DNA of 64,000 bases from Streptomyces sp. NBC_01283 (GTDB lineage Bacteria > Actinomycetota > Actinomycetes > Streptomycetales > Streptomycetaceae). The position numbers and the translations under genes were made by a program. Each line of letters opens with the position of its first letter. Position 1 is the first letter of the stretch. The notes below the pieces were generated by a model that worked only from the letters and a program-made list of their open reading frames with translations, searched no databases and was not told the origin of the DNA. Location: NCBI RefSeq assembly GCF_041435335.1, contig NZ_CP108430.1, positions 2,294,001 through 2,358,000 on the forward strand, in the 5' to 3' direction. Below, piece after piece: positions 23,505 through 38,531 of this stretch.

Positions 23505-24818
23505 ATGGCCAAGCCCCGCAGACCCCGTTCCGGCGTTACCCGCGTCGCCCTCGTCGCGGCCCTCGCGGCGGTCGCCGCGACCGCGCCCCTGGGCTCCGGC
23601 GCCGTAGCGGCCTCGCCGCTGCCCGCCGTCGAACCGCGCTCCGAGACCCCCGCCGTGCACGACGACGACGCGGGCGGCAACGCCGACGCCGACGACCCGG
23701 CGATCTGGCGCAACTCCGCCGACCCGGGCCGCAGTCTGGTCGTCGCCACCGCCAAGCAGGGCGGGCTGCGCGTGTACGACCTGTCGGCGCGCGAGGTGCA
23801 GTCCGTTCCGGCACCCGCGGCGCCCGGACCGGACGACGCGCCCGGCCGCTTCAACAACGTCGACCTGGTGCACGGCCTGCGCCTGCCGTCCGGCCGCGCC
23901 GACCTCGCGGTCACCAGCGACCGCGGCAACGACCGGCTGCGCGTCTACCGCATCGACCGCGACCGCTCCGGCGGCCCGCTCACCGACGTGACCGACCCGT
24001 CGGCGCCGCCCGTCTTCTCGACCTCGCAGGAGGAGATCAACGAGCAGCGCACCGCCTACGGCCTCGCGACGTGGACGGACCCGTCGACGGGCCGGTCGTA
24101 CGCACTGGTCAGCCAGCGGGAGCGGACCCGCATCGCGCTCCTCGAACTGACCCCGAAGAGCGACGGAACGGTCGGCTACCGCAAGGTCCGCACACTCGAC
24201 CTGCCCGCCGACTTCCGCCTGCCGGACGGTACTTCGTGGTCGCCGTGCGGCGAACCGGGCGAACGGCCGCAGGTGGAGGGCATGGTCGTGGATCCGGCCA
24301 ACGGCACGCTCTACGCGGGCCAGGAGGACGTCGGCATCTGGCGGCTGCGCGCCGACCTGACGGGCAAGCCCCAACTGGTCGACAAGGTGCGCGAGTACGG
24401 AATACCCGGGACGTACGACCCCTCGACCGAGGAGTGCACCGCGGGCACCGACCCGGGCTACGGCGGCAAGCGCCTCAAGGCCGACGTCGAGGGCCTGACG
24501 CTGCTTGAGGAGGGCAACGGCGACGGCTATCTGCTGGCCTCCAGCCAGGGCGACAACACCTTCGCCGCCTACGACCGCGAGGTGTCCGACCGCAACGAGT
24601 ACGAGGGCGGCTTCCGCGTCACGGCCGCCTCCGCCACGCTCGACGGCTCCGAGGAATGCGACGGTGCCGCGGTCCTCAACAAGCCGCTGGGCGCGAAGTA
24701 TCCGCACGGGCTGCTCGTGGTGCAGGACGGTCACGACGCGCCCGGCGACCCCGAACGCCCCTCCACCGACTTCAAGTTCGTGGATCTGGGCGACGTGCTC
24801 GACGCCGTCGACGACTGA
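23505..24818 (+). CDS. Secreted beta-propeller phytase
   Basis: 437 residues. ATG 23505 is chosen because AAAGGGA (23491-23497) is 8 bases upstream; ATG 23484 is in frame. Signal peptide: basic RRPRSG, hydrophobic VALVAALAAVAATAPLGSGAVA, cleavage around ASPLPA. The mature part matches BPP-type 3-phytases: DDAGGNADADDPAIWRN, ATAKQGGLRVYDL, NNVDLVHGLRLPSG, VTSDRGNDRLRVYRI, VEGMVVDPANGTLYAGQEDVGIWR, DVEGLTLL and SSQGDNTFAAYDR, supplying the acidic calcium/substrate site. Releases phosphate from phytate outside the cell. Expression is probably phosphate-controlled, though a clear PHO box is not seen. Confidence 0.88.
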   Translation: MAKPRRPRSGVTRVALVAALAAVAATAPLGSGAVAASPLPAVEPRSETPAVHDDDAGGNADADDPAIWRNSADPGRSLVVATAKQGGLRVYDLSAREVQSVPAPAAPGPDDAPGRFNNVDLVHGLRLPSGRADLAVTSDRGNDRLRVYRIDRDRSGGPLTDVTDPSAPPVFSTSQEEINEQRTAYGLATWTDPSTGRSYALVSQRERTRIALLELTPKSDGTVGYRKVRTLDLPADFRLPDGTSWSPCGEPGERPQVEGMVVDPANGTLYAGQEDVGIWRLRADLTGKPQLVDKVREYGIPGTYDPSTEECTAGTDPGYGGKRLKADVEGLTLLEEGNGDGYLLASSQGDNTFAAYDREVSDRNEYEGGFRVTAASATLDGSEECDGAAVLNKPLGAKYPHGLLVVQDGHDAPGDPERPSTDFKFVDLGDVLDAVDD

Positions 24819-25566: not shown

Positions 25567-27093
25567 GTGACGGAATCTCGACCGCACCACCCCGCTTCCG
25601 ACGGGAGCGGACTACTTCTTGAGGCCTTCGACGCCCAGCTGTTCCGGGCGACTTCCGAAACCGCTCTCGCGAAGCTGGAGAAGCACCTTTCCGATCTCTC
25701 CATCAGGGGGCTCGAACTGACCGATCCCGCGACGTTGTCGGATGCGGCGAAAGCCCTGATGACGACGGAGCGCGAGCAGGTGGCGGCGTTCGACGAGGAG
25801 AAGCTGGCAGGGATCATCGACCTGTACATCAGGACCGGCATCCAGGTGCACTCACCTGGCTACATGGGCCGCCAGTTCTCGGGCGTCGTACCGCTCGCCG
25901 GCGTCATCGACTTCGTCAGCTCGGTGGTCAACCAGCCGGCCTCGTTCTACGAGGCGGCCCAGTTGCCCAACGCGGTGGAACGGATCATGGCCGATGAACT
26001 GAACCGCTTCATCGGCTGGGATCCGGCGCGGTTCACCATGGTGACCACCTCAGGAGGGTCCCTGGCCAATCTCACCGCACTCCTGGCCGCCCGTAACCAG
26101 AAGCTGCCCGGCTACTGGTCGGAGGGCGGCTCCTCCTTGCGCGGCCAGCCACGGCCCGCCATCGCGGTGGGCGCGGACGTGCACTACAGCGTCGCGCGGG
26201 CGGCCGGTGTGATGGGCATCGGCGAGGCCCAGCTCGTACGGCTGCCGCTGAACAGCCGGGGGCAGATCTCCGTGGCGGACGCGCGGCCCGCCCTGGAGGC
26301 GGCTGAGCGGCAGAACCTCAAGGTGTTCTGCCTCGTCGCGTCGGCCGGCAGCACGTCGGTGGGCGCCTTCGACCCGCTCGACGAACTCGCCGCCCTGGCC
26401 GGGGAGAGGGATCTCTGGCTGCACGTCGACGGTGCCCACGGAGCGAGCCTCCTGGTGTCGGACACGCTCCGCGAGAAACTGCGCGGCATCGACAAGGCGG
26501 ATTCCCTGACCTGGGACGCGCACAAATTGATGTTCGTGCCCGCGCCCTGCACGATGCTCTTCTACCGGGACAAGGAGGCGAGCCGCACCGCCTTCCGGCA
26601 GAAGGCCAGTTATGTGTTCGACGAGGAGCCGGACATATACACCGCGTACGACAGCGGTGGCAAGAACTTCGAATGTACGAAACGGCCGATGATCATGACC
26701 CTGTGGTCGCTCTGGGCCATGTTCGGAAGGGCCTTGTTCGCGGAGAAGATCGAATATCTCTGCCGGTTGACGGAGGAGGCCCACGGAATCGTCAGGACCG
26801 ATCCCGACTTCGAGACACTGCACCGTCCGGAAGCGAACATCCTGTGCTTCCGATATCACCCGGCCGGGATCAGGAAAGCGGACGTCCACCGCCTCCAGAT
26901 CGCCATCCGCAACAGCGTGAAGCTCCGGGGAAACTTCTTCATCTCCAAGGTGAACGTCAATGGGGTGGCCGCACTGCGCGTGGTCATGATGAACCATCAG
27001 ATAACCGCCGAGCACTTCCGGATGCTGATCTCCGAAATCAGAAGGACCGGCCAGGACCTGCTCAGCAGCGAAGCGGGAACAGAAACAGCTTAG
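25567..27093 (+). CDS. PLP-dependent decarboxylase (group II, glutamate/aromatic/diaminobutyrate type)
   Basis: 508 residues from a GTG at 25567 with GAAGGAG ending 6 bases upstream; the frame is open earlier (ATG 25480) but the ribosome site decides. Fold-type I group II decarboxylase: TTSGGSLANLTALLAAR, LHVDGAHGAS with the Asp that contacts the pyridine nitrogen, and TWDAHKLMFVP with Lys320 as the Schiff-base lysine. It should decarboxylate an amino acid to an amine; the substrate is not evident. First gene of a run with a PaaK-like ligase (10 bp downstream) and four paralogous small proteins, so its product may feed or modify something made by that cluster. Confidence 0.85.
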   Translation: MTESRPHHPASDGSGLLLEAFDAQLFRATSETALAKLEKHLSDLSIRGLELTDPATLSDAAKALMTTEREQVAAFDEEKLAGIIDLYIRTGIQVHSPGYMGRQFSGVVPLAGVIDFVSSVVNQPASFYEAAQLPNAVERIMADELNRFIGWDPARFTMVTTSGGSLANLTALLAARNQKLPGYWSEGGSSLRGQPRPAIAVGADVHYSVARAAGVMGIGEAQLVRLPLNSRGQISVADARPALEAAERQNLKVFCLVASAGSTSVGAFDPLDELAALAGERDLWLHVDGAHGASLLVSDTLREKLRGIDKADSLTWDAHKLMFVPAPCTMLFYRDKEASRTAFRQKASYVFDEEPDIYTAYDSGGKNFECTKRPMIMTLWSLWAMFGRALFAEKIEYLCRLTEEAHGIVRTDPDFETLHRPEANILCFRYHPAGIRKADVHRLQIAIRNSVKLRGNFFISKVNVNGVAALRVVMMNHQITAEHFRMLISEIRRTGQDLLSSEAGTETA

Positions 27094-27102
27094 AGGGGAC
27101 GG

Positions 27103-28680
27103 ATGTTGAGTACATCGCAAGTTCCACAGGCCGCACACGTTCCGCCGATCGCACCGGTGCCCAGTGGCACCCGTGAACTGGCCAACTGGCTCATCCCCGA
27201 TCGGGAGTTACACCCGGAATCAGTTGACGCCGTAACCGCACTCCCCTCGTTCGCGAGCAAGTTACGTGAATGCGAACGGGTCTGTCAGACGCCGTACAGC
27301 GAGGTGTCGCACGAGGTTCAGGAAGCCGTCGTACTGCGTCGCCTGCAGCAAATGGTGAACACGGCGATGCTCAATCCCCTGTGGCGCGACCGGCTGCGCA
27401 ACGCGGGCACCGTGCGCGCCCCCGAGACGTACGAGGCGTGGCAGCAGATCCCGCTCTCGGACAAGGACATCCAGCGCGACTTCTTCATGGAGTCACGGCC
27501 CGGCATGGTGGTACCCCTCACCCGCGGCGAGTTCGAGATCGTGGCCAGCGGCGGCACCAGCGGTGGCCGGCCGCTCGAAGTCGTTTACTCCCTGCGGGAG
27601 TTGAAGGACACGTACGAGATCGCGGGCCGCTTCATGGGCGCCTATCAGCTCGCCGCATACCTCGCGGGCACCGACCCCAAGTGGCTGTTCACCACGCTGG
27701 CCGACTACCAGATGTGGAGCAGCGGCACGATGGTGGGCGGTGTGCTGCAGCACGTGCCCGGCGTCAACTACGTCGGCGCGGGCCCCGTCACCGCCCCGGT
27801 CCTGGAGCACATGTTCTCCTACCGGGGCCCCAAGGCCCTGATGGGGATCTCGGCGGGCATCGGGATCCTGAGCGAGCTCGGCGTGGGCATGCGCCAGGAG
27901 TCCAGGGAGAGCTTCCGTGTCGCCCTGTACGGCAGCGGGGTGCTCTCGCAGCGCAAGCGGGTGGAGCTAAAGGCGCTGTACCCGAACCTGTCGATCCTCA
28001 GCTACTTCGCCGCCACCCAGGCCGAGACCATCGGCCTGCAGCTGGACCCCGACTCACCCCACCTCTCGGCGGTGCCCGGCCTGCACTTCATCGAGATCGT
28101 CGACGAGAACGGGCGCTGGGTCCCCGAGGGCGAGGAGGGCGAACTCGTCGTCACCCGCCTGCACGCCCACGAGGCACCGCTCCTGCGGCTCAAGCTGGGC
28201 GACCGGATGATCCGGCGGCCGAGGACCGAGGGCCCCGGCCCGAAGACCCAGCAGTTCGAGTTCGCGGGCCGCACCGGCGACGTGCTCCACATCAACGACA
28301 GCCAGTACTCGGCGGCTCGCGCCTACGACGCGGTGCGGGACGAGCTGAAGGCCGCCGAGGCGGTGGACCTGGACGAGGTGGCGCACGAGGTCCAGTTCGT
28401 GAACTACCGCGAGGGCAAGGTCATCACGCTCGTCGTCTCGGTCGACGACGTGCTCGGCCTGACCTACCGGGCGGACACGGCTCTTGGGCCCTACGGGGTG
28501 CAGCAGGTGTTCGTGAACGCCCTGCCGCGTTCCCTGTCGCTCTTCAACCACGGAGAAGCGAACCCCGCGTCGATCGAGAAGACCGGTTACACCTTCCAGC
28601 TCAAGTTCGTGCCCCGCCTCTCGGCCGAGATCGAGCGGACGGCCGTCGGCAAGGTCCCGCTGGTGCGGGACCGGGGCTAG
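27103..28680 (+). CDS. PaaK-like adenylate-forming enzyme
   Basis: 525 residues, ATG 27103 with GAGGGGA upstream. Resembles phenylacetate-CoA-ligase-type ANL enzymes: phosphate-binding loop IVASGGTSGGRPLEV, a middle region with GISAGIGILSELG and ALYGSGVLSQRKR, the adenylate motif region YFAATQAETIGLQL, and a hinge/C-terminal part EGELVVTRL...LRLKLGDRM...FAGRTGDVLHIND. Likely activates a carboxylic acid as acyl-AMP and passes it to CoA, an amine or a protein. Codons 36 and 54 are TTA (27208-27210, 27262-27264), so production should depend on bldA and thus on development. Located between the decarboxylase and the first paralog. Confidence 0.75.
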   Translation: MLSTSQVPQAAHVPPIAPVPSGTRELANWLIPDRELHPESVDAVTALPSFASKLRECERVCQTPYSEVSHEVQEAVVLRRLQQMVNTAMLNPLWRDRLRNAGTVRAPETYEAWQQIPLSDKDIQRDFFMESRPGMVVPLTRGEFEIVASGGTSGGRPLEVVYSLRELKDTYEIAGRFMGAYQLAAYLAGTDPKWLFTTLADYQMWSSGTMVGGVLQHVPGVNYVGAGPVTAPVLEHMFSYRGPKALMGISAGIGILSELGVGMRQESRESFRVALYGSGVLSQRKRVELKALYPNLSILSYFAATQAETIGLQLDPDSPHLSAVPGLHFIEIVDENGRWVPEGEEGELVVTRLHAHEAPLLRLKLGDRMIRRPRTEGPGPKTQQFEFAGRTGDVLHINDSQYSAARAYDAVRDELKAAEAVDLDEVAHEVQFVNYREGKVITLVVSVDDVLGLTYRADTALGPYGVQQVFVNALPRSLSLFNHGEANPASIEKTGYTFQLKFVPRLSAEIERTAVGKVPLVRDRG

Positions 28681-28700
28681 CGCCTACAGGAGGAGTGAGG

Positions 28701-29153
28701 ATGAAGCCGCAAGTGAACATCGTCGCGGTCGTCGACGTCATCGGAGCGCTCTCGGGCAGCACGCTGCTCAACGGCAACCTCTGCATGATGGACGACGGCG
28801 GGGAGAACAGCGCCCACCAGGGGACGCCGGACCTGTGCACCGTGGTCAGGCCGGGGCAGGTCGTCTCGTGGTCCGCCCTCGCCGTGGACCTGCAGACCCC
28901 CGTCGAGATCAAGAACATCTCGTTCGTGCCCGAGAACGGGAGCCACAGCTCAGGCCAGACTCAGGGCCAGGCGCAGGGCGTCCAGAACGGCAACCACACC
29001 GAGGGCGACAAGCTCGACCTCGACGTCTGGACGGGCATCGTGCCCAACTGGCTGACGCCCGGAGTGGCCTACCGCTACCGCCTGGAACTCCAGATGTACG
29101 AGGGCGAGAACAGCGTCATGCACATCGACACCCCCGCGTTGATGTGCCAGTAG
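28701..29153 (+). CDS. AidA/PixA-like small protein, paralog 1
   Basis: 150 residues, ATG 28701 after AGGAGGAGTGAGG. The N-terminus NIVAVVDVIGAL, then GNLCMMDDG, HQGTPDL, VRPGQVVSW, and late WTGIVPNWLTPGVAYRYRLELQM recur in the three following genes. The pattern (hydrophobic strand + VDxxxAL, YMMD, QGTxxL, GQxLxW, YRxxL) resembles the inclusion-body family AidA/PixA, small beta-sandwich proteins; this is a remote, motif-level resemblance. No signal peptide or membrane helix. A Gln/Gly-rich insertion lies at about residues 78-95. Function unknown. Confidence 0.65.
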   Translation: MKPQVNIVAVVDVIGALSGSTLLNGNLCMMDDGGENSAHQGTPDLCTVVRPGQVVSWSALAVDLQTPVEIKNISFVPENGSHSSGQTQGQAQGVQNGNHTEGDKLDLDVWTGIVPNWLTPGVAYRYRLELQMYEGENSVMHIDTPALMCQ

Positions 29154-29219
29154 CACCAGTGCCGGCCGGAGCGCGACGGCAAGGGACGGGAATCCAGTAA
29201 CGGCGACAAAGGCGGAATC

Positions 29220-30023
29220 ATGCCCCAACAATTGGCGATCATCGTGCTCGTGGACGTCGGCAGTGCGCTGGAGTCCGAGTCACTCGAAGGCAACACCTAC
29301 CTGTTCGACAACATGAAGCTGCAGGGCTCGACGAACCAGGGAACCGGCGAGCTCGTGACCGCGATCAACGGTTCCTACTGGAGGGATGGATCGCAGGCCA
29401 GTGAGCAGGTGCTCAACTGGCTGCCGTACAGCCTCGGTTCCATCCCGCCGACCGTGCCCCGCGGCTACGAGTTCGACCGCGCCCGGCAGACCGACGAGCA
29501 GGCCCTGGCCGACCTGCAGGATCTCGCGAGCAAGTCCTCGGTCGCCGGCACGGACCAGACCGAGCAGCTCAGCCAGGTCCGCAAGACCGTCGGTGCCCGC
29601 GTCAAGACCACGCGGCGCACGCGCGGGCGGCTGTCCGGGCAGAAGATCCTGGACGTCACCGGCAAGGTCGTCACCGAGGACAACACGGCCGCGTACACCT
29701 ACCCCGCCCCGGTGATCACCGACATCTACGGCGAGGCCGTGGACTCGAAGATCATGTATCCGGCGGAGTACGGCTCCCCGGACCTGGTCACCGACGGCTG
29801 GTACTGGTCGGCGTCCGTCGACACCTCGCGGCCCGGAACCTACTCGTACGTGATGCGGATCCAGCTGCACAAGCTGGTGGGTCTCAACGGCGAACTGCGC
29901 TGGGAGGCGGTCGACCTGACCTGTCCCTCGACCCTCAAGATCACCTCGGAGCCACGGCGGAACGCCTTCACCAAGGCGGGCGTGGGCATGCTGCCCATCC
30001 CTCCGGACGCCGGCACCCGCTGA
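29220..30023 (+). CDS. AidA/PixA-like protein with long insertion, paralog 2
   Basis: 267 residues, ATG 29220. Begins LAIIVLVDVGSALESESLEGNTYLFDN and has NQGTGEL and QVLNWLPY like its neighbours, then an extra charged, helical segment of about 100 residues (DEQALADLQDL..., RVKTTRRTRGRLSGQ) before the shared C-terminal half: PVITDIYGEAVD, YWSASVDTSRPGTYSYVMRIQL and DLTCPSTLKI. The insertion is absent from paralogs 1, 3 and 4 and could be an interaction arm. No export signal. Confidence 0.65.
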   Translation: MPQQLAIIVLVDVGSALESESLEGNTYLFDNMKLQGSTNQGTGELVTAINGSYWRDGSQASEQVLNWLPYSLGSIPPTVPRGYEFDRARQTDEQALADLQDLASKSSVAGTDQTEQLSQVRKTVGARVKTTRRTRGRLSGQKILDVTGKVVTEDNTAAYTYPAPVITDIYGEAVDSKIMYPAEYGSPDLVTDGWYWSASVDTSRPGTYSYVMRIQLHKLVGLNGELRWEAVDLTCPSTLKITSEPRRNAFTKAGVGMLPIPPDAGTR

Positions 30024-30056
30024 TCCCGCACGGACTTCAGCCAGAAGGAGGAGCAG

Positions 30057-30491
30057 ATGACGACCACCACGCCCAGGCGGCGTGAGACCGGTGCCGCGAA
30101 GCGGCCCGTCTCGATCACCGCCGTAGTGGACTGTGTGGGCGCCCTGGCAGCCGGCAACATGCAGGGCCACCTGTACATGTACGACACGAACAAGTCAGCG
30201 GGTTCCACCGGCTTCGGCACCGAGGAACTGCAGACGCGCGCCCGCAAGGGCGACCAACTCCTGTGGAACGCGCTCGCGTTGGAGTGCGAGGCCTTCGTGG
30301 CCATCGACAGCATCGTGATCGACAGCTCCATCTGCGTGCCGGAGCGGAAGGTCTATCCGGGCACCGACGTCGCCTACTGGATCGGGACCGTGAAGCGGGA
30401 CGTCACGAACGTCACGTACCAGATCAACTTCAAGCTGGGCACGAGGGACGAGCCGATCGCCACCACCCTGTCGTCGTCCCTCGTCGGCTAG
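30057..30491 (+). CDS. AidA/PixA-like small protein, paralog 3
   Basis: 144 residues, ATG 30057 after AAGGAGGAGCAG. Shared motifs: SITAVVDCVGAL, GHLYMYDTN, GFGTEELQT, KGDQLLWNALAL, then a compact VYPGTDVAYWIGTVKRDVTN and YQINFKL. The shortest of the four, so it may define the minimal domain. Confidence 0.65.
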   Translation: MTTTTPRRRETGAAKRPVSITAVVDCVGALAAGNMQGHLYMYDTNKSAGSTGFGTEELQTRARKGDQLLWNALALECEAFVAIDSIVIDSSICVPERKVYPGTDVAYWIGTVKRDVTNVTYQINFKLGTRDEPIATTLSSSLVG

Positions 30492-30525
30492 GGCCCGGCA
30501 TGACGGCGTACGAGAAGGAGGAGCG

Positions 30526-31089
30526 TTGACCAGCACCGCGCAGAAGTCGACCAGCACCGAGCACCAGAAGCAGAATCCCGGCCAGCTCAACTCGGTCCAG
30601 CTGAACATCGTGACGCTCATCAACATGGAGCGGGCCGTGGAGACGGGCTCGCTGAGCGACTCGATGTACATGATGGACAACAGCATCGGCGGCAAGGGAC
30701 AGGGGACGTCGTCCCTGGAGACGGTCTGCAAGCAGGGCCAGGTCCTGAACTGGATCGTGCGCCCGCTCGACATGGAGAAGCGCCCGGACGGCACCTGGCC
30801 TCCCATGCCGAAGATCAACAACATCACGTTCCTCGACACCGAGCTGGGTGACGAGGAGGACGTGGCCGAGCGGAAGATCTTCACCGAGCTGAAGATCTAC
30901 GGGATGCCGGACCGCATGCGGGACAAGTTCACGCCGGTCTACTACTACTGGGCGGGCACGGTCCTGAGCAACGCCAAGCCGGGCGTGCACCGGTACCGGC
31001 TCGTGATGGAGCTGGAGCAGGACCGCAAGAAGGAGAAGCTGTACCTGAACACGGCCATCCACCCGTCGATCAGGATCCTCGGGGTCTGA
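30526..31089 (+). CDS. AidA/PixA-like small protein, paralog 4
   Basis: 187 residues from a TTG at 30526 with GAAGGAGGAGCG directly upstream. Ser/Thr/Gln-rich leader of about 25 residues, then LNIVTLINMERAV, DSMYMMDNS, GQGTSSLET, QGQVLNWIVRPLDM, INNITFLD, and VYYYWAGTVLSNAKPGVHRYRLVMEL. Last of the four paralogs; a strong hairpin follows (31108-31140). Confidence 0.65.
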   Translation: MTSTAQKSTSTEHQKQNPGQLNSVQLNIVTLINMERAVETGSLSDSMYMMDNSIGGKGQGTSSLETVCKQGQVLNWIVRPLDMEKRPDGTWPPMPKINNITFLDTELGDEEDVAERKIFTELKIYGMPDRMRDKFTPVYYYWAGTVLSNAKPGVHRYRLVMELEQDRKKEKLYLNTAIHPSIRILGV

Positions 31090-31107
31090 CGCAGAGCCCG
31101 CGACGCG

Positions 31108-31140
31108 TGACCGCCAGGCCGGATATCGGCCTGGCGGTCA
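31108..31140. terminator. 14-bp-stem hairpin ending the paralog run
   Basis: TGACCGCCAGGCCG and CGGCCTGGCGGTCA form a perfect 14-bp stem with a 5-base loop (GATAT), 19 bp after paralog 4 and 56 bp before the CotH gene. No T run. Probably a terminator or attenuator separating two transcription levels. Confidence 0.65.
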
Positions 31141-31195
31141 TGTGGCACCGGGCGTAGAGAGGAAAGTTCACGCCAGGGATCCCAGGGAGGCCACC

Positions 31196-32947
31196 GTGGA
31201 CAGGACCATCGGCAAGGGCACGTTCCGGGACGCGTTCAAGAACCAGGTCATCGCGGTCTCCGCGCTGCCGCCGGGCATCGGGCGGCGGCTCGCCGAGCGG
31301 GCCAACGCGGCGTCGGGTCCGACGGATGCCGCGCTGCGGACGAAGGCCGAGTTCAGCACGTTGTACGACCTGTTGCTCGCCGAGCAGGGGGACCTGTCGG
31401 GCGCTTCGGCCGACGGCAGCCTGGTGCTCCTGGACGCGGACGGGCAGCTCACCGAGATCGGGCGGATCGTCGACGAGCTCCTCAACTCGGCCCAGAGCAA
31501 AACGGAGTTCTTCGCTCAGGACATGTATCAGGTCAAGGTCACCGGCTGGCCGCCCGGCGTCCTGACGGCCGACGAGGTGATGGAGGCGCCGCAGGGTGCC
31601 CGGCTGACCCTGGCGAGGAACGACACCCCGGACGACACGCTGCTGGCGACGCCGTCGTTCTCGATGGTCAACAGCGGCAACATGACCGCGCACGCCCCCA
31701 AGCGCTCCTGGAAGATCAACTTCGAGGTCGGCGAGAGCGAGGACCGGCTCTACGGCATGGAGCGGATCAACCTCAAGGCGATGTACAACGACCCGTCGCA
31801 GATGCGCGAGGCCGTCGCCTGGCGGCTCCTGGAACGCGCGGGCATCCCGGCGGCACAGCACACGTACGCGACGTTCTCGATCAACGACCGCTACATGGGC
31901 CTCTACTCGGTCATCGAGCAGGTCGACAAGAAGTTCCTGAAGGACCACTTCGGCAAGAACTCCGAGGGCAACCTCTACAAGGCGTACTGCGGCGACGTCG
32001 GCTGCGCGACCCTGGAGCACCGCTCCGGCACGGACGGCAGCGACGGCGGACGGCACTACTTCACCGCGGGCAGCCGGGAGGACGACCGTACCTACCGCCT
32101 GAAGACGAACGAGGACAATCCGTCCGCCAACACCTATGACGACCTCGCCACGCTCGTCCGGGCCATCAACGGCGTCGAACTGGCGGGACGCGGCGACCGG
32201 TTCACGTCCGACGCCTTCCGTGACGCGGTCGAGCGGGTGCTGAACGTGGCCGCTTTCCTGCGCTGGGCGGGCGCCAACGTCCTCCTGGGCAGCTGGGACA
32301 ACTACTTCGCGACGCCGTCGAACTACTACCTCTACAACTCGGGCCGGCTCGGCGACCCGACGGGCTTCATGGCACGCCCGTACTTCACGTTCGTCCCGTG
32401 GGACTACGACAACAGCTCGGGCATCGACTTCTTCTCGACGCCGTGGCAGTACACGGATCTGCTCGACTGGCCCGCGATGAGCCGCGACTACTGCCGGATC
32501 ACGCACGCGCCGCACGAGGTGTCCCAACTGCCGCTGTTCACCAACCTGCTGCGGAACCACGACTTCTGCCAGTACTACCTCGACCACCTCGAGTACCTCC
32601 TGGACACGGAGTTCGGCCCCGAGCGGGTCGCCGAGCTCCTCGGCGCGGAGGGCTCCGGGCGGACCGACGGCCTGTGGCAGCTCGTCGCGTCCGCCGCGTA
32701 CGGCGAGTCCACGAGTCCGCACGGACAGGCCTTCACCGGGCGGCAGTTCACGAACGACGAGGTGTACCGCGCCGGGTACCGGCAGTGGGAGCTGAGCCGG
32801 GGCTCGCAGTTCACGTACGGGATCTTCCACTACACGCGCATGCGCTACGACCACGCACGACAGCAGCTTGCCGAGCTGCGCAAGACCTATCCGAACGGCG
32901 CCAGCGGGGCGTCGTTCCCCGGCGCGATGGAGGTACTGCCCTCATGA
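31196..32947 (+). CDS. CotH-kinase family protein
   Basis: 583 residues from a GTG at 31196 (GGGAGG upstream). The central region has the CotH pattern: APKRSWKINFEV, GMERINLKAMYNDPSQMREAVAWRLLERAGIP, YMGLYSVIEQVDKKFLKDHFG, then LNVAAFLRWAGANVLLGSWDNY and FVPWDYDNSSGIDFF, where the Asp residues of WDN and WDYDNS correspond to the catalytic/metal-binding acids. CotH enzymes are atypical kinases that phosphorylate secreted or spore-coat proteins. No signal peptide is visible, so it likely acts inside the cell. Overlaps the next gene by 4 bp. The preceding paralogs are possible substrates (inference). Confidence 0.85.
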   Translation: MDRTIGKGTFRDAFKNQVIAVSALPPGIGRRLAERANAASGPTDAALRTKAEFSTLYDLLLAEQGDLSGASADGSLVLLDADGQLTEIGRIVDELLNSAQSKTEFFAQDMYQVKVTGWPPGVLTADEVMEAPQGARLTLARNDTPDDTLLATPSFSMVNSGNMTAHAPKRSWKINFEVGESEDRLYGMERINLKAMYNDPSQMREAVAWRLLERAGIPAAQHTYATFSINDRYMGLYSVIEQVDKKFLKDHFGKNSEGNLYKAYCGDVGCATLEHRSGTDGSDGGRHYFTAGSREDDRTYRLKTNEDNPSANTYDDLATLVRAINGVELAGRGDRFTSDAFRDAVERVLNVAAFLRWAGANVLLGSWDNYFATPSNYYLYNSGRLGDPTGFMARPYFTFVPWDYDNSSGIDFFSTPWQYTDLLDWPAMSRDYCRITHAPHEVSQLPLFTNLLRNHDFCQYYLDHLEYLLDTEFGPERVAELLGAEGSGRTDGLWQLVASAAYGESTSPHGQAFTGRQFTNDEVYRAGYRQWELSRGSQFTYGIFHYTRMRYDHARQQLAELRKTYPNGASGASFPGAMEVLPS

Positions 32948-33873
32948 CCGCAACGAAGAAGTCCGCCAAGGCCGATGCCGCGCACGAGCTCCGCCTCGTC
33001 AAGGAAGCCAAGATCCGGGACCTGATCGGTGACGGCGCGGGCACCCGCCTGGAGGCGAGCGGTGTCGTCTACCGCGACGGCGCCTTCCTGATCGTCTGCG
33101 ACAACCTGCCCTCCCTCATCCGGGTCAGCAGCGAGCTGTCGCCCAAGGCGCCGGAGAACGGCGTTCTCAAGCGCACCAAGGGAAAGAAGAAGGGCAAGTC
33201 CGGGGCGAACGAGGGGTTCGAGGACCTCGCCCACGACGAGCGGCGCGACCACTACTTCGCGCTGAGCGAGGCCGAACCGATCAAGCCCAAGGGCTTCCGC
33301 GCCCGCATTCACGAGTTCGACGAGAAGCTGCGCCCGGTCGGCTCGACCCTGCTCGACTTCGATCTGCCGGACGCCAACAAGGGCATGGAAGGCCTGGAGT
33401 GGGTCGAGCGCTCGGGCGCGAGCCATCTCCTCGCCCTGTGCGAGGGCAACCGGTGCGCGGGCGGCAAGAAGGGCAGGACGCCGGGCGGTGGCCGCATCCA
33501 GGTTCTCCGGCAGGGCGGCAAGCGCTGGATCCACACGGCCACGATCCGGCTGCCCGAGTCGCTGCCCTTCGAGGACTTCAGCAGCGTGTCCGTGCGCGAC
33601 GGGCGGATCGCCGTCCTGTCGCAGGCGTCGTCGGCGCTGTGGGTGGGCCGCATCTCCACCAAGAAGTGGGAGGTCGACGAGGGCACGGTCCACCGCCTGC
33701 CCACCGACGGCAAGGGCCGTGCGGTCTACGGCAATCCGGAGGGCGTCTCCTGGATCTCGTCCGACCATGTGGTGATCGTGTCCGACCGGGCGAAGAAGGG
33801 CGCGGGGAGCGAGCGCTTCCGTGCGAAGGACCAGTCGATCCACCTGTTCCTGATCCCGGGCAACAACGGCTGA
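32944..33873 (+). CDS. Beta-propeller-like protein (phytase-like/SdiA-regulated-like fold)
   Basis: 309 residues, ATG overlapping the CotH stop (ATGA). Repeated beta segments such as LEASGVVYRDGAFLIVCDN, GFEDLAHDERRDHYFALSEAE, KGMEGLEWVERSGASHLLALCEGN, SVSVRDGRIAVLSQAS, and GNPEGVSWISSDHVVIVSDRA, with NEGFED and GMEGLEW acidic patches, resemble esterase-like phytase or SdiA-regulated beta-propellers. A Lys-rich KGKKKGKSG lies near residue 80. No signal peptide. Translationally coupled to the CotH protein, so the two likely act together; activity unknown. Confidence 0.6.
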   Translation: MTATKKSAKADAAHELRLVKEAKIRDLIGDGAGTRLEASGVVYRDGAFLIVCDNLPSLIRVSSELSPKAPENGVLKRTKGKKKGKSGANEGFEDLAHDERRDHYFALSEAEPIKPKGFRARIHEFDEKLRPVGSTLLDFDLPDANKGMEGLEWVERSGASHLLALCEGNRCAGGKKGRTPGGGRIQVLRQGGKRWIHTATIRLPESLPFEDFSSVSVRDGRIAVLSQASSALWVGRISTKKWEVDEGTVHRLPTDGKGRAVYGNPEGVSWISSDHVVIVSDRAKKGAGSERFRAKDQSIHLFLIPGNNG

Positions 33874-33898: not shown

Positions 33899-34597
33899 CT
33901 ATTCGGCCTCGGCCGCCCACAGGCCGCGTACGTGACCGAGGTGACGGGTCATGACCGCGCGTACGGCGTCCTCGTCGCGGGCGAGCAGCGCGTCCAGGAT
34001 CTCCAGGTGCTCCTCGGCCGACGCCTCCAGGCGCCCCGCGTCGACGAGCGCCTGGAGTCCGTACAGGCGTGAGCGCTTGCGCAGGTCGCCGACCACCTCG
34101 ACCAGGTGGTCGTTGCCGCCGAGCGCGAGCAGCCCGAGGTGGAAGCGGATGTCGGCCTCGACGTACGCGATGAGGTCGCCGTCCGCCGCCGCCGTGACGA
34201 TCGCCTGCGCCGCCGGGCGCAGCGCTTCGAGCGCGGCGGGGTCCGCCGACGTGGCGAGCTCCGCGGTGGTGGGGATCTCGATCAGCGCGCGGATGTGCTT
34301 GTACTCGTCGAGCTGCTTCTCGGAGACGGCAGTGACCCGGAAGCCCTTGTTCGGCACCGTGTCGACGAGCCCCTCCTTGGCGAGGTCGAGCATGGCCTCG
34401 CGGACCGGGGTGGCGGAGACGCCGAAGCGCACGGCGAGGGTGGGCGCGGAGTAGATCTCACCCGCGCGGAGTTCACCGGCGATGAGCGCGGCCCGCAGCG
34501 CGTCCGCCACCCGCTCGCGGTAGCTGCTGCGCGTACCGCCCAGGCTCGGCAGGGCCGCGGGGGCGGCGGACGGGGCGGGGTTGCGACGGGCGGCCAT
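33899..34597 (-). CDS. GntR/FCD-family transcriptional regulator of the hydroxyproline operon
   Basis: 232 residues, ATG at 34595-34597 with GGAGGAG upstream. N-terminal winged helix (RERVADALRAALIAGELRAGEIYSAPTLAVRFGVSATPVREAMLDLAKEGLV) and C-terminal FCD ligand-binding helices (HIRALIEIPTT..., RFHLGLLALGGNDHLVEVV). Last gene of the minus-strand hydroxyproline cluster and presumably its repressor. The motif ATGTCAC(G/A)T occurs upstream of this gene (34620-34628) and upstream of the first gene of the cluster (39716-39724). A paralog is encoded at 53958-54764. Confidence 0.88.
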   Translation of the reverse strand: MAARRNPAPSAAPAALPSLGGTRSSYRERVADALRAALIAGELRAGEIYSAPTLAVRFGVSATPVREAMLDLAKEGLVDTVPNKGFRVTAVSEKQLDEYKHIRALIEIPTTAELATSADPAALEALRPAAQAIVTAAADGDLIAYVEADIRFHLGLLALGGNDHLVEVVGDLRKRSRLYGLQALVDAGRLEASAEEHLEILDALLARDEDAVRAVMTRHLGHVRGLWAAEAE

Positions 34598-34619
34598 GGG
34601 GTCGCTCCTCCTTGGTGCA

Positions 34620-34628
34620 ATGTCACGT
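34620..34628. promoter_or_regulatory. Candidate GntR operator, copy 1
   Basis: ATGTCACGT, 22 bp upstream of the regulator's start; one base different from the palindromic ATGTCACAT at 39716-39724. Candidate autoregulatory site. Confidence 0.4.
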
Positions 34629-34669
34629 GCCACGAGTATCCCAGGCCGCGGAGATCCGTCAGAAGGGCC

Positions 34670-35671
34670 CTAGAGAACGAACCCCGCCGGGAAGGGGTCG
34701 TCCGGGTCGAGGAGGTACTGCGCGGTGCCCGTCACCCAGGCACGCCCGGTGAAGCTGGGCAGCACCGCCGGGATGCCCGCGACGTCCGTGGTCCCGAGCA
34801 GCCGCCCGCTGAAGCGCGTGCCGATGAAGGATTCGTTGACGAACTCGGTGTCCAGGGGCAGTTCGCCGCGCGCGTGGAGCTGGGCCATGCGCGCGCTCGT
34901 CCCGGTGCCGCACGGCGAGCGGTCGAACCAGCCGGGGTGGATGGCCATCGCGTGCCGGGAGTACCGGGCGGTGGCGCCGGGTGCGTGGAGGTGGACGTGG
35001 TGGCAGCCGCGGATGGACGGGTCCTCGGGGTGCACCGGTTCGTCGGCGGTGTTGATGGCCTCCATGAGGGAGAGGCCCGCCGCGAGGATGTCGTCCTTGC
35101 GTCCGCGCTCGAAGGGCAGGCCGAACTGGTCCAGGGGCAGGATGGCGTAGAAGTTGCCGCCGTAGGCCAGGTCGTAGGTGACCGTACGGCCGTCGGGCAG
35201 GGTGATCTTGCGGTCGAGGCCGACGGCGAAGGACGGCACGTTCTTGAGGGTGACGGCCTTCGCCGCGCCGTTCTCGACGGCCACCTCGGCGACGACGAGG
35301 CCCGCCGGGGTGTCGAGACGGATCGTGGTGACCGGCTCGACGACCTCGACCATGCCGGTCTCGACGAGGACGGTGGCGACGCCGATGGTGCCGTGCCCGC
35401 ACATCGGCAGATAGCCCGAGACCTCGATGTAGATCACGCCGTAGTCGCAGTCGGGCCGGGTGGGCGGCTGGAGGATCGCGCCGCTCATCGCCGCGTGGCC
35501 GCGCGGCTCGTTCATCAGGAGCTGTTTGATGTCGTCGCGGTGCTCGCGGAAGTGGAGCCTGCGCTCGTTCATCGTCGCGCCGGGGACGGTGCCGATGCCG
35601 CCGGTGATCACTCGCGTCGGCATGCCTTCGGTGTGCGAGTCGACCGCGTGCAGGACGAGTTTGCTGCGCAT
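34670..35671 (-). CDS. lhpA: 4-hydroxyproline 2-epimerase (proline racemase family)
   Basis: 333 residues. Both catalytic cysteines of the family are present, MCGHGTIG (C91) and SPCGTGTSA (C254); dehydratase relatives have Ser or Thr at the first position, so this should be an epimerase/racemase. With the DHDPS-like and dehydrogenase genes next to it, the likely reaction is trans-4-hydroxy-L-proline to cis-4-hydroxy-D-proline, the first step of bacterial hydroxyproline breakdown (lhp pathway). The upstream gap to the deaminase gene is 52 bp and contains a 17-bp direct repeat (35690-35706, 35714-35730). Confidence 0.87.
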   Translation of the reverse strand: MRSKLVLHAVDSHTEGMPTRVITGGIGTVPGATMNERRLHFREHRDDIKQLLMNEPRGHAAMSGAILQPPTRPDCDYGVIYIEVSGYLPMCGHGTIGVATVLVETGMVEVVEPVTTIRLDTPAGLVVAEVAVENGAAKAVTLKNVPSFAVGLDRKITLPDGRTVTYDLAYGGNFYAILPLDQFGLPFERGRKDDILAAGLSLMEAINTADEPVHPEDPSIRGCHHVHLHAPGATARYSRHAMAIHPGWFDRSPCGTGTSARMAQLHARGELPLDTEFVNESFIGTRFSGRLLGTTDVAGIPAVLPSFTGRAWVTGTAQYLLDPDDPFPAGFVL

Positions 35672-35689
35672 GTGCGGTGCCTTTCGCTG

Positions 35690-35730
35690 GGTACGGCTGT
35701 CAGGTCGTCGCCGGGTACGGCTGTCAGGTG
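35690..35730. repeat. 17-bp direct repeat between lhp genes
   Basis: GGGTACGGCTGTCAGGT at 35690-35706 and again at 35714-35730, period 24 bp, in the short gap between the deaminase stop and the epimerase start. Confidence 0.7.
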
Positions 35731-36629
35731 AGCCCGGCGGCGATGGCCCGCTCCGTGGCGGTGCGCACGGCCTGCTCCTGCTCGGGCAGCAGCGGCACGC
35801 GCGGGGGGCGGCAGGGGCCGCCGTGGCGCCCCGCGAGGTCCATGGACAGCTTGATGGCCTGCACGAACTCGGGCCTGGAGTCCCAGCGGAGCAGCGGGTG
35901 CAGCTGCCGGTAGAGCTTGCCCGCCGTGCCCAGGTCGCCGGCCACGGCGGCGCGGTACAGCTCGACGGACGCGGCGGGCAGCATGTTCGGGTAGCCCGCG
36001 ACCCAGCCCTTGGCGCCCGCGAGGGCGAGTTCGAGCAGGACGTCGTCGGCGCCGATCAACAGGTCGAGTTCGGGGGCGAGTTCGGCGATGCGGTAGGCGC
36101 GGCGTACGTCGCCGGAGAACTCCTTGACGGCGTGTATGTACCCCTCGGCGTGCAGCTTCGCGAGGAGCTCGGGCACGAGGTCGACCTTGGTGTCGATGGG
36201 GTTGTTGTACGCGACGACGGGGAGGCCCGCCTTGGCGACCTCCTCGTAGTGGGCGAGGACGGAGCGCTCGTCGGCGCGGTAGGCGTTGGGCGGGAGCAGC
36301 ATCACGGAGGCGCAGCCCGCGTCCTTGGCCTGCTCGGCCCAGCGGCGGGCCTCGGCGGAGCCGTAGGCGGCGACGCCGGGCATCACACGCTGCCCGCCGA
36401 CCGCCGCGACGGCGGTCTCCACGACCTTGGCGCGCTCCTCGGGGGTGAGGACCTGGTACTCGCCGAGGGATCCGTTGGGCGCGACGCCGTCGCAGCCGTT
36501 CTCGACCAGCCAGGCGCAGTGCTCGGCGAACTTGCCGTAGTCGACGGACAGGTCGTCGTTCATCGGGAGTGCGGTGGCGACGAGGACTCCGTGCCAGGGG
36601 CGGGGACGGTCTGCTGCGGGCGGGTTCAT
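35724..36629 (-). CDS. lhpC: DHDPS-family lyase, probable pyrroline-4-hydroxy-2-carboxylate deaminase
   Basis: 301 residues, ATG at 36627-36629 with AAGGGA upstream. A (beta/alpha)8 DapA-superfamily enzyme: GSLGEYQVLTPEERAKVV (ligand loop), VVAYNNPIDT with the catalytic Tyr, and YIHAVKEFSGD with the Schiff-base Lys. In the hydroxyproline pathway this family converts the pyrroline product of the D-hydroxyproline dehydrogenase to alpha-ketoglutaric semialdehyde with loss of ammonia. The dehydrogenase that finishes the pathway is not in the window. The 73-bp gap upstream contains GGTGCGGGGA repeats. Confidence 0.82.
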   Translation of the reverse strand: MNPPAADRPRPWHGVLVATALPMNDDLSVDYGKFAEHCAWLVENGCDGVAPNGSLGEYQVLTPEERAKVVETAVAAVGGQRVMPGVAAYGSAEARRWAEQAKDAGCASVMLLPPNAYRADERSVLAHYEEVAKAGLPVVAYNNPIDTKVDLVPELLAKLHAEGYIHAVKEFSGDVRRAYRIAELAPELDLLIGADDVLLELALAGAKGWVAGYPNMLPAASVELYRAAVAGDLGTAGKLYRQLHPLLRWDSRPEFVQAIKLSMDLAGRHGGPCRPPRVPLLPEQEQAVRTATERAIAAGLT

Positions 36630-36702
36630 GGGAGTGGTCCCTTCGTTGCGGTGCGGGGCGGCGCGGGGCGGAGGTGCGGGGAGGTGCGGGGAGGTGCGGT
36701 GG

Positions 36703-38172
36703 CTAGAAGGGGCCCGGTTCGTCGTCGGCGGTCCGTGCGAGCACTCCGAGCGGTACCGGCCGGGCGAACGGCCGACGCGCGGAACCCTCGGCGCAGCCCG
36801 CGAGTCCGGCGACGGCCGCCGCGCACATGCGGCCCTGGCACCAGCCCATGCCGGCCCGGGTCAGGAGTTTCACGGTCCGCACGTCGGTGGCCCCGAGTTC
36901 GTCGACGGCCTCGCGGACCGCTGACGCCGGGACCTCCTCGCAGCGGCAGACGAGGGTGTCGTCGCGGAGCTGCTCGGTCCAGTGCGCGGACGGCACGTAC
37001 ACGGCGCCGAGCACGTCGGCGAACTCCCGCGCCTTCGTACGTGCCGTGGCCGCGGCGGCCCATGCGGTCGGGTCGGGCGTACTCCCGCGCAGCCGGGCGG
37101 CGGCCGAGCGTCCGGCGATGTGTCCCTCGGCGAGCGAGAGGGCGGCGCCGCCGATGCCGGTGGTCTCGCCTGCGGCCCAGACGCCGGGGACGTCGGTGCG
37201 CTGCTCGGCGTCGACGGCGACGTTCGGGCCGTCGACCCGGCAGCCGAGACCCTCGGCGAGATCGGTGTGCGGGAGCATGCCGTGGCCGACGGCGAGGGTG
37301 TCGCAGGGGATGCGCCGCTCGGTGCCGGGCCTGACCCGGCCCGCCGCGTCGAGCGCGGCGATGGTCACCGCGTCCAGCGCATCCTTGCCGTGTGCTTCGA
37401 CGACGGTGTGACGTGACACCAACGGGACGCGATGGCGCAGCAGTTGAGCGGCGTACCCGGCACCTTCGGCGAGCTTGTCCGGATGGGCGGCGAGGGTGGC
37501 CGCGTGCCGCGCGAAGGCCTTGGGGTCGGCGGACTCGACCAGGGCGGCGACCTCGGCCCCGGCCGCCGCGAGCCCTGCGGCGACGGGCATGAGCAGCGGG
37601 CCCGTCCCGGCCACGACCGCGGTGCGTCCCGGCAGGACGAGGCCTCCCTTGAGCATGGCCTGGGCACCACCGGCGGTCAGCACGCCGGGCAGGGTCCAGC
37701 CGGGGAACGGCAGGACTTTCTCGTATCCCCCGGTGGCAAGGAGCACGGCGTCGGCGTGCACCGTCGCGGGCCGCTCCTGCTCGGGGCCGAGGAGCGCATG
37801 CACGGTAAAGCGACGCCCGGCCCACGGAGCTTCTCCGCCCGATCCCTCAACCGAACCATCAATCGCTGCCGTATCCCCGAAGTGGCTTTCCACGAACCAG
37901 ACATGATGCTCAGTCAGGTGCGTGATGCGTCCTGCGGCGATCTGTTCGGCGACTCCGTCCCGCAGCCGTTCCCACGTCCGCCACCGATGATGCAAGGCCT
38001 GTGGCCGACGCGCGCCGAGCGCTCCGGCGGGCTGCCGGTAGAACTGTCCGCCCGCCTGCCCCGCGGAGTCCACCACGGTCACCCGCACCCCGCACCGGGC
38101 CGCACTCACCGCCGCCGCAAGCCCCGCGGGCCCCGCGCCGATCACGGCAAGCGTGCCGCGCCTGGCCGTCAC
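36703..38172 (-). CDS. D-hydroxyproline dehydrogenase, FAD/NAD(P)-binding alpha-type subunit
   Basis: 489 residues from a GTG at 38170-38172 that overlaps the stop of the 2Fe-2S gene. FAD-binding VIGAGPAGLAAAVSAARCG at the N-terminus, second dinucleotide fold AVVAGTGPLLMPVAAGLAAAGAEV, GVWAAGETTGIGGAALSLAEGHIAG, and a C-terminal BFD-like [2Fe-2S] region CRCEEV...C (CRCEEVP and WCQGRMC). This is the large cyanide-insensitive-type subunit of multi-subunit D-hydroxyproline/amine dehydrogenases (SoxA/LhpF-like). It works with the small 2Fe-2S protein and the DadA-like subunit encoded immediately upstream. Confidence 0.82.
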   Translation of the reverse strand: MTARRGTLAVIGAGPAGLAAAVSAARCGVRVTVVDSAGQAGGQFYRQPAGALGARRPQALHHRWRTWERLRDGVAEQIAAGRITHLTEHHVWFVESHFGDTAAIDGSVEGSGGEAPWAGRRFTVHALLGPEQERPATVHADAVLLATGGYEKVLPFPGWTLPGVLTAGGAQAMLKGGLVLPGRTAVVAGTGPLLMPVAAGLAAAGAEVAALVESADPKAFARHAATLAAHPDKLAEGAGYAAQLLRHRVPLVSRHTVVEAHGKDALDAVTIAALDAAGRVRPGTERRIPCDTLAVGHGMLPHTDLAEGLGCRVDGPNVAVDAEQRTDVPGVWAAGETTGIGGAALSLAEGHIAGRSAAARLRGSTPDPTAWAAAATARTKAREFADVLGAVYVPSAHWTEQLRDDTLVCRCEEVPASAVREAVDELGATDVRTVKLLTRAGMGWCQGRMCAAAVAGLAGCAEGSARRPFARPVPLGVLARTADDEPGPF

Positions 38173-38531
38173 CGGCCGTCTCCCACGCCATGACCGCTGC
38201 CGTGCTGCGTCCGGATCTCGGCGTAAGGTTCGGCCGGTGCCAGACAAGCCCGTTGGTTCGGGCGGCCGTTGATCTCCACCAGGCAGTCGAAGCAGACGCC
38301 GATCCCGCAGAAGATGCCCCTCGGTTCGCCGTTGCCCCTCGTGGTGCGCCAGGCGGTGACGCCCGCCGACCAGAGCGCGGCGGCCACCGTCTGGCCCGGC
38401 AGGGCCTGGATCTCGCGGCCGTCGAACGTGATGGTGTGCGGTGGGCCCGGCCGGGCGTGGGCCAGGGCCAGGGGGGTGCGTTTGTTCATGGCGCCTCCTC
38501 GGGTGTTGATGGCACCTCCTCGGGTGTTCAT
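38169..38531 (-). CDS. 2Fe-2S subunit of D-hydroxyproline dehydrogenase
   Basis: Up to 120 residues. The [2Fe-2S] motif is FCGIGVCFDC followed by LVEINGRPNQRAC (C-x4-C-x2-C...C). Two starts are equally good: ATG 38529-38531, overlapping the upstream stop, and ATG 38487-38489, because a 21-bp unit containing GAGGAGG and an ATG (or ATC) is present three times in tandem. Homologs would be nearer 100 residues, favouring the inner start. The protein is the electron-transfer subunit linking the flavin subunits, and its gene overlaps both neighbours. Confidence 0.8.
   Translation of the reverse strand: MNTRGGAINTRGGAMNKRTPLALAHARPGPPHTITFDGREIQALPGQTVAAALWSAGVTAWRTTRGNGEPRGIFCGIGVCFDCLVEINGRPNQRACLAPAEPYAEIRTQHGSGHGVGDGR

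Follow-up and report, generated by a model that had tools for sequence, protein, structure and literature searches.

The window, as we call the whole 64,000-nucleotide stretch C1:2294001-2358000 from the 9.59-Mb genome (5 contigs) of Streptomyces sp. NBC_01283, carries a cassette of six plus-strand genes, which encode a decarboxylase, a PaaK-like ligase and four proteins related to MakC/MakD and PixA (pixA1 to pixA4), followed by genes for a CotH kinase-family protein and a presumed beta-propeller protein (Table 1). The six-gene cassette is real and is conserved across phyla, and from it we infer a mechanism. An earlier note, made from the sequence alone, had described eight plus-strand open reading frames (ORFs) here, and all eight were found. 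In gene order, the intergenic distances are 9, 20, 66, 33, 34 and 106 bp, and the CotH and propeller genes overlap by 4 bp. The eight are co-directional, as the single cluster proposed in the note would have it, but they probably form two transcription units because a 14-bp hairpin lies in the 106-bp gap before CotH. A perfect hairpin of at least 13 bp follows pixA4 in 6 of 17 loci, the window among them.

Table 1. Features of the six-gene cassette and the adjoining CotH/propeller module, in window coordinates.
Feature	Position	Strand	Basis or remark
PLP (pyridoxal phosphate)-dependent decarboxylase, GAD/GADL1/CSAD-like, cassette gene 1	25567..27093	+	PF00282
PaaK-like adenylate-forming ligase, cassette gene 2	27103..28680 (start 27103 or 27106)	+	Weak PaaK-family NCBIfam matches, motifs
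pixA1, MakCD/PixA-like paralog 1	28701..29153	+	NF049870 below cut-off; ortholog alignment A5
pixA2, MakCD/PixA-like paralog 2	29220..30023	+	NF049870, predicted structure, Foldseek to MakC
pixA3, MakCD/PixA-like paralog 3	30057..30491	+	NF049870, PDB 8rqy / 6tct matches
pixA4, MakCD/PixA-like paralog 4, TTG start	30526..31089	+	
Perfect 14-bp hairpin between cassette and CotH	31108..31140	+	Terminator-like as hairpin only, T run unchecked
CotH kinase-family protein, separate module	31196..32947	+	PF08757, PDB 5jd9
SdiA-regulated/phytase-like protein, presumed beta-propeller, separate module	32944..33873	+	PF06977, 23.6 bits, cut-off 21

The order decarboxylase, ligase, pixA1, pixA2, pixA3, pixA4, all on one strand, was found in 19 of the 19 loci read, the window included. 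These loci, which were chosen by match to a paralog, the ligase or CotH, comprise 16 actinobacterial loci (family labels f1, f17 and f38, plus Nonomuraea) and three on rhizobial plasmids; L026 duplicates record L022 and was left out of the count. A conserved neighbourhood in other actinobacteria is therefore present for the six cassette genes, and the constant order backs the joint working of the two enzymes and four paralogs that had been proposed. When a plasmid collection was searched by tblastn with pixA3, ligase and pixA4 queries, the identical seven records were returned each time (five Bradyrhizobium, one Sinorhizobium and one Nonomuraea, the last being a record of 11.8 Mb), and gene context was read in four of them. 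In the three rhizobial plasmid loci, a cysteine hydrolase gene comes after the sixth gene, and transposase genes lie nearby. The six-gene cassette is passed on as a single unit, by descent and by transfer. In Sinorhizobium, L108:8823-9266, which lies upstream of the cassette, encodes a CVNH (cyanovirin-like) domain protein.

The MakCD model matched 5 of the 150 Streptomyces genomes searched, each carrying four copies, and 6 of the 394 searched from the class; the ligase was present in 8 of 392 Streptomyces genomes. Across the phylum, a ligase search with a threshold of E 1e-3 matched 62 of 198 genomes; apart from the window's own, every one of these matches was distant (best 5.8e-12, 29% identity). 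Further ligase relatives were found in Azospirillum, Insolitispirillum, Sphingobium, Andreprevotia and Nodularia as sequence matches only, with the gene context not seen. No cassette relative was found in the viral_contigs and phage records. Two actinobacterial genomes, G218 (L086) and G348 (L087:2435-2827), each hold a lone MakCD-family gene above the curated cut-off (161 bits), and no cassette gene was found in the stretches inspected there (3.3 and 20 kb).

The similarity of the four paralogs to one another is above chance: phmmer gave 12.2-29.1 bits in all six pairs, with 40 shuffles per pair scoring at most 3.0, and hhalign of the ortholog alignments gave 96.8-99.5% probability in the same six pairs, the three that include paralog 2 having only 46-61 aligned columns. 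All four matched the MakCD model NF049870 (paralogs 1-4: E 3.1e-11, 2.3e-10, 4.2e-21 and 2.7e-12; 43.4, 40.6, 75.3 and 46.8 bits) at scores under its curated cut-off of 110 bits. The paralog closest to MakC/MakD is pixA3, which as a single sequence matched PDB 8rqy at 5.7e-13 and 6tct at 3.8e-8. Homology to MakC/MakD was also obtained with ortholog profiles A3 (3.9e-7), A2 (1.1e-5) and A4 (1.3e-31, a profile that contains one lone MakCD-like row, L087). Matches to the PixA family PF12306 were fainter: P0003 scored 14.8 bits against a cut-off of 21, the other three paralogs gave no match, and two of the 14 members of the pixA3 alignment reached E <=0.1 (best 0.017). A PF12306 search of the own genome gave 0/1, and the controls of that search also matched in 0/14.

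Predicted structures of paralogs 4 and 2 both matched MakC/MakD/PixA structures and have the PixA beta-sandwich fold. The pixA2 model (predicted local distance difference test score 63, predicted template modelling score 0.55) matched MakC in Foldseek at 2.4e-6 and contains a helical insertion (roughly residues 80-130). The AidA/PixA relationship suggested previously is thus upheld by the sequence links to MakC/MakD and by these two models. The list of shared motifs given with it is present but loose, the YR-x-L element being YQINFKL in paralog 3 and YVMRIQL in paralog 2. Paralogs 2 and 4 also have in common a YG-x-PD block before the W/Y-Y-W strand, which is invariant in the 17-row alignments.

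A tree was built from 52 paralogs of 13 loci. Position labels required three changes on this tree, the minimum for four labels, against a mean of 29.1 after shuffling, and pixA2, pixA3 and pixA4 formed one group each. The four paralogs are distinct, old and co-maintained lineages. The tree is most simply read as a divergence of the four subunits that preceded that of the loci, with the set retained since then.

MakC and MakD of the Vibrio cholerae mak operon (PDB 8rqy, 6tct; NF049870) share their fold and a clear sequence relationship with the cassette paralogs, and in both systems small paralogs lie side by side in an operon. MakC and MakD are cytosolic, form dimers in crystals and are of unknown function, and strong crosslinking to other proteins is reported for MakC (PMC11484084). 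The cassette differs in having four paralogs rather than two, and in pairing them with a decarboxylase and a ligase instead of pore-forming toxin subunits; no such toxin subunit was found among the neighbours searched for families or the recurrent flank ORFs, the flanks not having been scanned exhaustively. Burkholderia PixA/AidA proteins are described as a poorly understood inclusion-body group (PMC9060813). In contrast to the PixA/AidA family (PF12306; PDB 4lzk, 4pib), the cassette paralogs fall under the Pfam cut-off.

The decarboxylase scored 184.6 bits with PF00282 (cut-off 27), and its nearest solved structures are GAD1 (8.4e-53) and GADL1 (4.9e-52), both at E ~1e-52. The DAHK motif with the PLP lysine, the ASYVF block and a C-terminal Arg are invariant in 17 of 17 loci. 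A near-invariant GYM(G/A)RQF occupies the place where GAD1 has RFFNQL, and the decarboxylase substrate may therefore differ. The ligase matched PDB 4r1l at 9e-7, and its ASGGTS loop and C-terminal VGK lysine are likewise invariant at all 17 loci. Within the PaaK family, FevW/BagE offers a precedent: FevW has been put forward as joining an acid to a phenol via adenylation (PMC6692506). One rhizobial cassette ligase weakly matched the BagE/FevW model (E 9.4e-4), and the adenylation motifs are kept. The cassette ligase differs from BagE/FevW in lying far under every family cut-off, and no aromatic natural-product genes were seen in the cassette.

An isochorismatase-like hydrolase gene adjoins the cassette in 6 of 17 loci and in three arrangements: upstream on the same strand (L024, L101), downstream on the same strand (L106-L108) and downstream on the opposite strand (L109). 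Flank clustering showed that this hydrolase is the sole family recurring across unrelated loci. Because the own genome holds 12 isochorismatase-like hydrolase genes in 9.6 Mb, we judge informally that adjacency in three arrangements is unlikely to arise by chance. An amidase-like hydrolase would fit an amide product.

TTA codons, which are under bldA control in Streptomyces, were found in the decarboxylase or ligase gene of 9 of 11 Streptomyces loci, compared with 7 of 143 non-cassette genes from 13 stretches; the window's ligase gene has two. This suggests that the cassette enzymes are made late, under bldA control, in Streptomyces.

The CotH protein scored 165.1 bits with PF08757 (cut-off 23.8) and matched PDB 5jd9 at 9.2e-8, with the kinase-motif regions aligned. 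A scan of genome_contigs revealed 25 CotH loci, six in Streptomyces and 19 in other bacteria, and a match to the propeller gene stands beside CotH in 19 of the 25; this propeller-like partner, together with the lack of any spore-coat context seen there, sets these loci apart from the known CotH family. None of the 19 non-Streptomyces stretches holds a cassette gene, none of five non-Streptomyces CotH genomes tested has the ligase, and the plasmid collection gave no CotH match. Among eight cassette genomes tested, a CotH ortholog was found in four and was missing from G045, G109, G464 and G405; G889 and G918 also have the cassette and no CotH ortholog at E 1e-100. Conversely, G906 has the CotH/propeller pair and no cassette. 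Outside Streptomyces, the pair has a third neighbour of about 350 amino acids in 9 of 21 loci compared (e.g., L029:12658-13704).

Within Streptomyces, the two modules co-occur. In 392 genomes, CotH was found in five, the ligase in eight and both in four (Fisher p 3.6e-7, uncorrected for phylogeny), the two counts apparently being of the same draw. For each of the six Streptomyces CotH loci from the genome_contigs scan, the genome also carries the ligase, and two of these six are in the 392-genome draw as well. In the union of both sets, excluding genomes picked for their cassette, eight of nine CotH genomes have the ligase, the exception being G906. Of these eight, four have CotH immediately downstream of the cassette (the window, G123, L027 and G839), L028 has it immediately upstream, and G081, L025 and L037 have it elsewhere. 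The four downstream cases probably represent one event because the same genes follow in each.

The histories of the two modules were compared in nine genomes (36 pairs), of which G410 was picked for its cassette and L028 has a partial CotH. Ligase nucleotide identity tracked that of rpoB (rank correlation 0.87), while CotH identity correlated with neither rpoB (0.17) nor the ligase (0.03). In the approximately unbiased test, the CotH data rejected both the ligase tree (6.5e-6) and the rpoB tree (0.005); the ligase data likewise rejected the rpoB tree.

Taken together, the six cassette genomes lacking an ortholog, the absence of a plasmid-collection match and the intervening hairpin speak against the idea that CotH belongs to the same unit. 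The co-occurrence that the earlier note proposed to survey holds for the decarboxylase with the four paralogs (19/19) but not throughout for CotH, which is absent from at least six cassette genomes. The note was right about the paralogs and in taking the first six genes to act jointly, and it overstated the place of CotH. We rejected CotH as an integral cassette gene, since it is separable, absent from some cassette genomes and found without the cassette in other phyla; that it is wholly unrelated to the cassette is weakened by the co-occurrence in Streptomyces, where a functional link is plausible. We read the CotH/propeller pair as an optional, mobile add-on kept mostly where the cassette is present.

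Other genes adjoin the two modules. Upstream of the cassette, 23508-24818 (+) encodes a secreted 3-phytase-like beta-propeller protein, named by eye; this gene is upstream of the cassette in L022 too, and L025 has a gene 73% identical to it, but downstream of the CotH/propeller pair. On the minus strand at 33899-38247, adjoining the propeller gene, lie genes for a GntR regulator, a proline racemase, a dihydrodipicolinate synthase-like protein and a FAD oxidoreductase, by eye a hydroxyproline-type catabolic operon. The first three of these also follow the propeller gene in L022, L027 and L099.

We tentatively favour, as somewhat short of probable, a reading in which the two enzymes make a small amide-type conjugate that is bound, stored or scaffolded by an assembly of four proteins in the cytosol. 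The decarboxylase would convert an acidic or diamino amino acid to an amine, and the PaaK-like ligase would adenylate a carboxylic acid and join it to that amine, or to coenzyme A, to give the conjugate. The four paralogs would form a cytosolic hetero-oligomer, built of face-packed beta-sandwich dimers, that would serve to bind, store or scaffold either the product or the enzymes. Where present, the hydrolase would cleave the conjugate and so set its level, and the separately transcribed CotH/propeller pair may add a further modification in some Streptomyces. This proposal draws on the six-gene order in all 19 loci, the old paralog lineages, the invariant catalytic residues in 17 of 17 loci, the FevW/BagE precedent, the MakC/MakD traits, the adjacent hydrolase and the TTA enrichment. 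Several points weigh against it. The ligase passes no family cut-off (NCBIfam PaaK 26.6 against 646.3 bits; PF00501 14 against 29.9), 11 of 17 loci have no adjoining hydrolase, and the hydrolase family is large. The TTA counts are drawn from related species, which makes them non-independent; the start codons of the decarboxylase genes are uncertain, and some of the TTA codons are close to starts of this kind. In the paralog tree, pixA1 formed a single clade in 45% of bootstrap trees and so stayed unresolved, and the tree tool flagged long branches (the divergent L083 set). A bolder form, to which we give only a small chance, is a mobile, self-contained compartment or condensate in which four PixA-type subunits of fixed role surround both enzymes, and in which small amides of a new class, serving as signal or store, are made and retained. 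CotH would then act in Streptomyces as an optional kinase controlling assembly, and PixA, AidA and MakC/MakD would be reduced versions of the scaffold.

Among other explanations, the paralogs may be accessory factors, like MakC/MakD or AidA, for making or exporting an anti-predator or anti-invertebrate small molecule produced by both enzymes, which we consider unlikely while taking it seriously. Double deletion of makC and makD lowered MakB and MakE and impaired MakA secretion (PMC11484084), and AidA is reported to be needed for virulence in C. elegans, with all five PixA proteins reduced in a bnr1 mutant (PMC9060813). However, flank clustering found no exporter or protein effector recurring beside the cassette, and the hosts are soil and nodule bacteria. 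The particle proposed in the earlier note, an intracellular inclusion whose subunits are phosphorylated by CotH, appears distinctly unlikely. PixA is known as an inclusion-body protein (PMC9060813), CotH co-occurs with the ligase in Streptomyces (4/5 in the 392-genome draw and 8/9 in the union), and its gene history is unlike that of the ligase; yet at least six cassette genomes have no CotH ortholog, none of the five non-Streptomyces CotH genomes has the ligase, G906 has the pair alone, a hairpin separates the modules, and the CotH-bearing genomes may partly share ancestry.

It is more doubtful still that the paralogs themselves are targets of the ligase, which would attach an acyl or amine-derived group to a conserved residue in at least one of the subunits. 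Genes for the enzyme and for the substrate-like proteins accompany each other in every locus read, and paralogs 2 and 4 have several side chains that do not vary, whereas inspection of the alignments by eye revealed no conserved lipoyl- or carrier-type attachment motif. That all eight genes are chance neighbours without joint function is hardly credible: the CotH pair is indeed separable from the others, but chance neighbourhood is rejected for the six cassette genes by an order kept across phyla in 19 of 19 loci.

A search of open-licence papers found no description of this gene set, which is weak evidence of absence. For the MakCD/PixA family, whose function is unknown, the significance of the cassette lies in the conserved order, which across phyla ties its members here to two enzymes with intact motifs. 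The role of the family thereby becomes testable, with a first biochemical handle on it, and a precise question is raised: why four distinct subunits are always needed.
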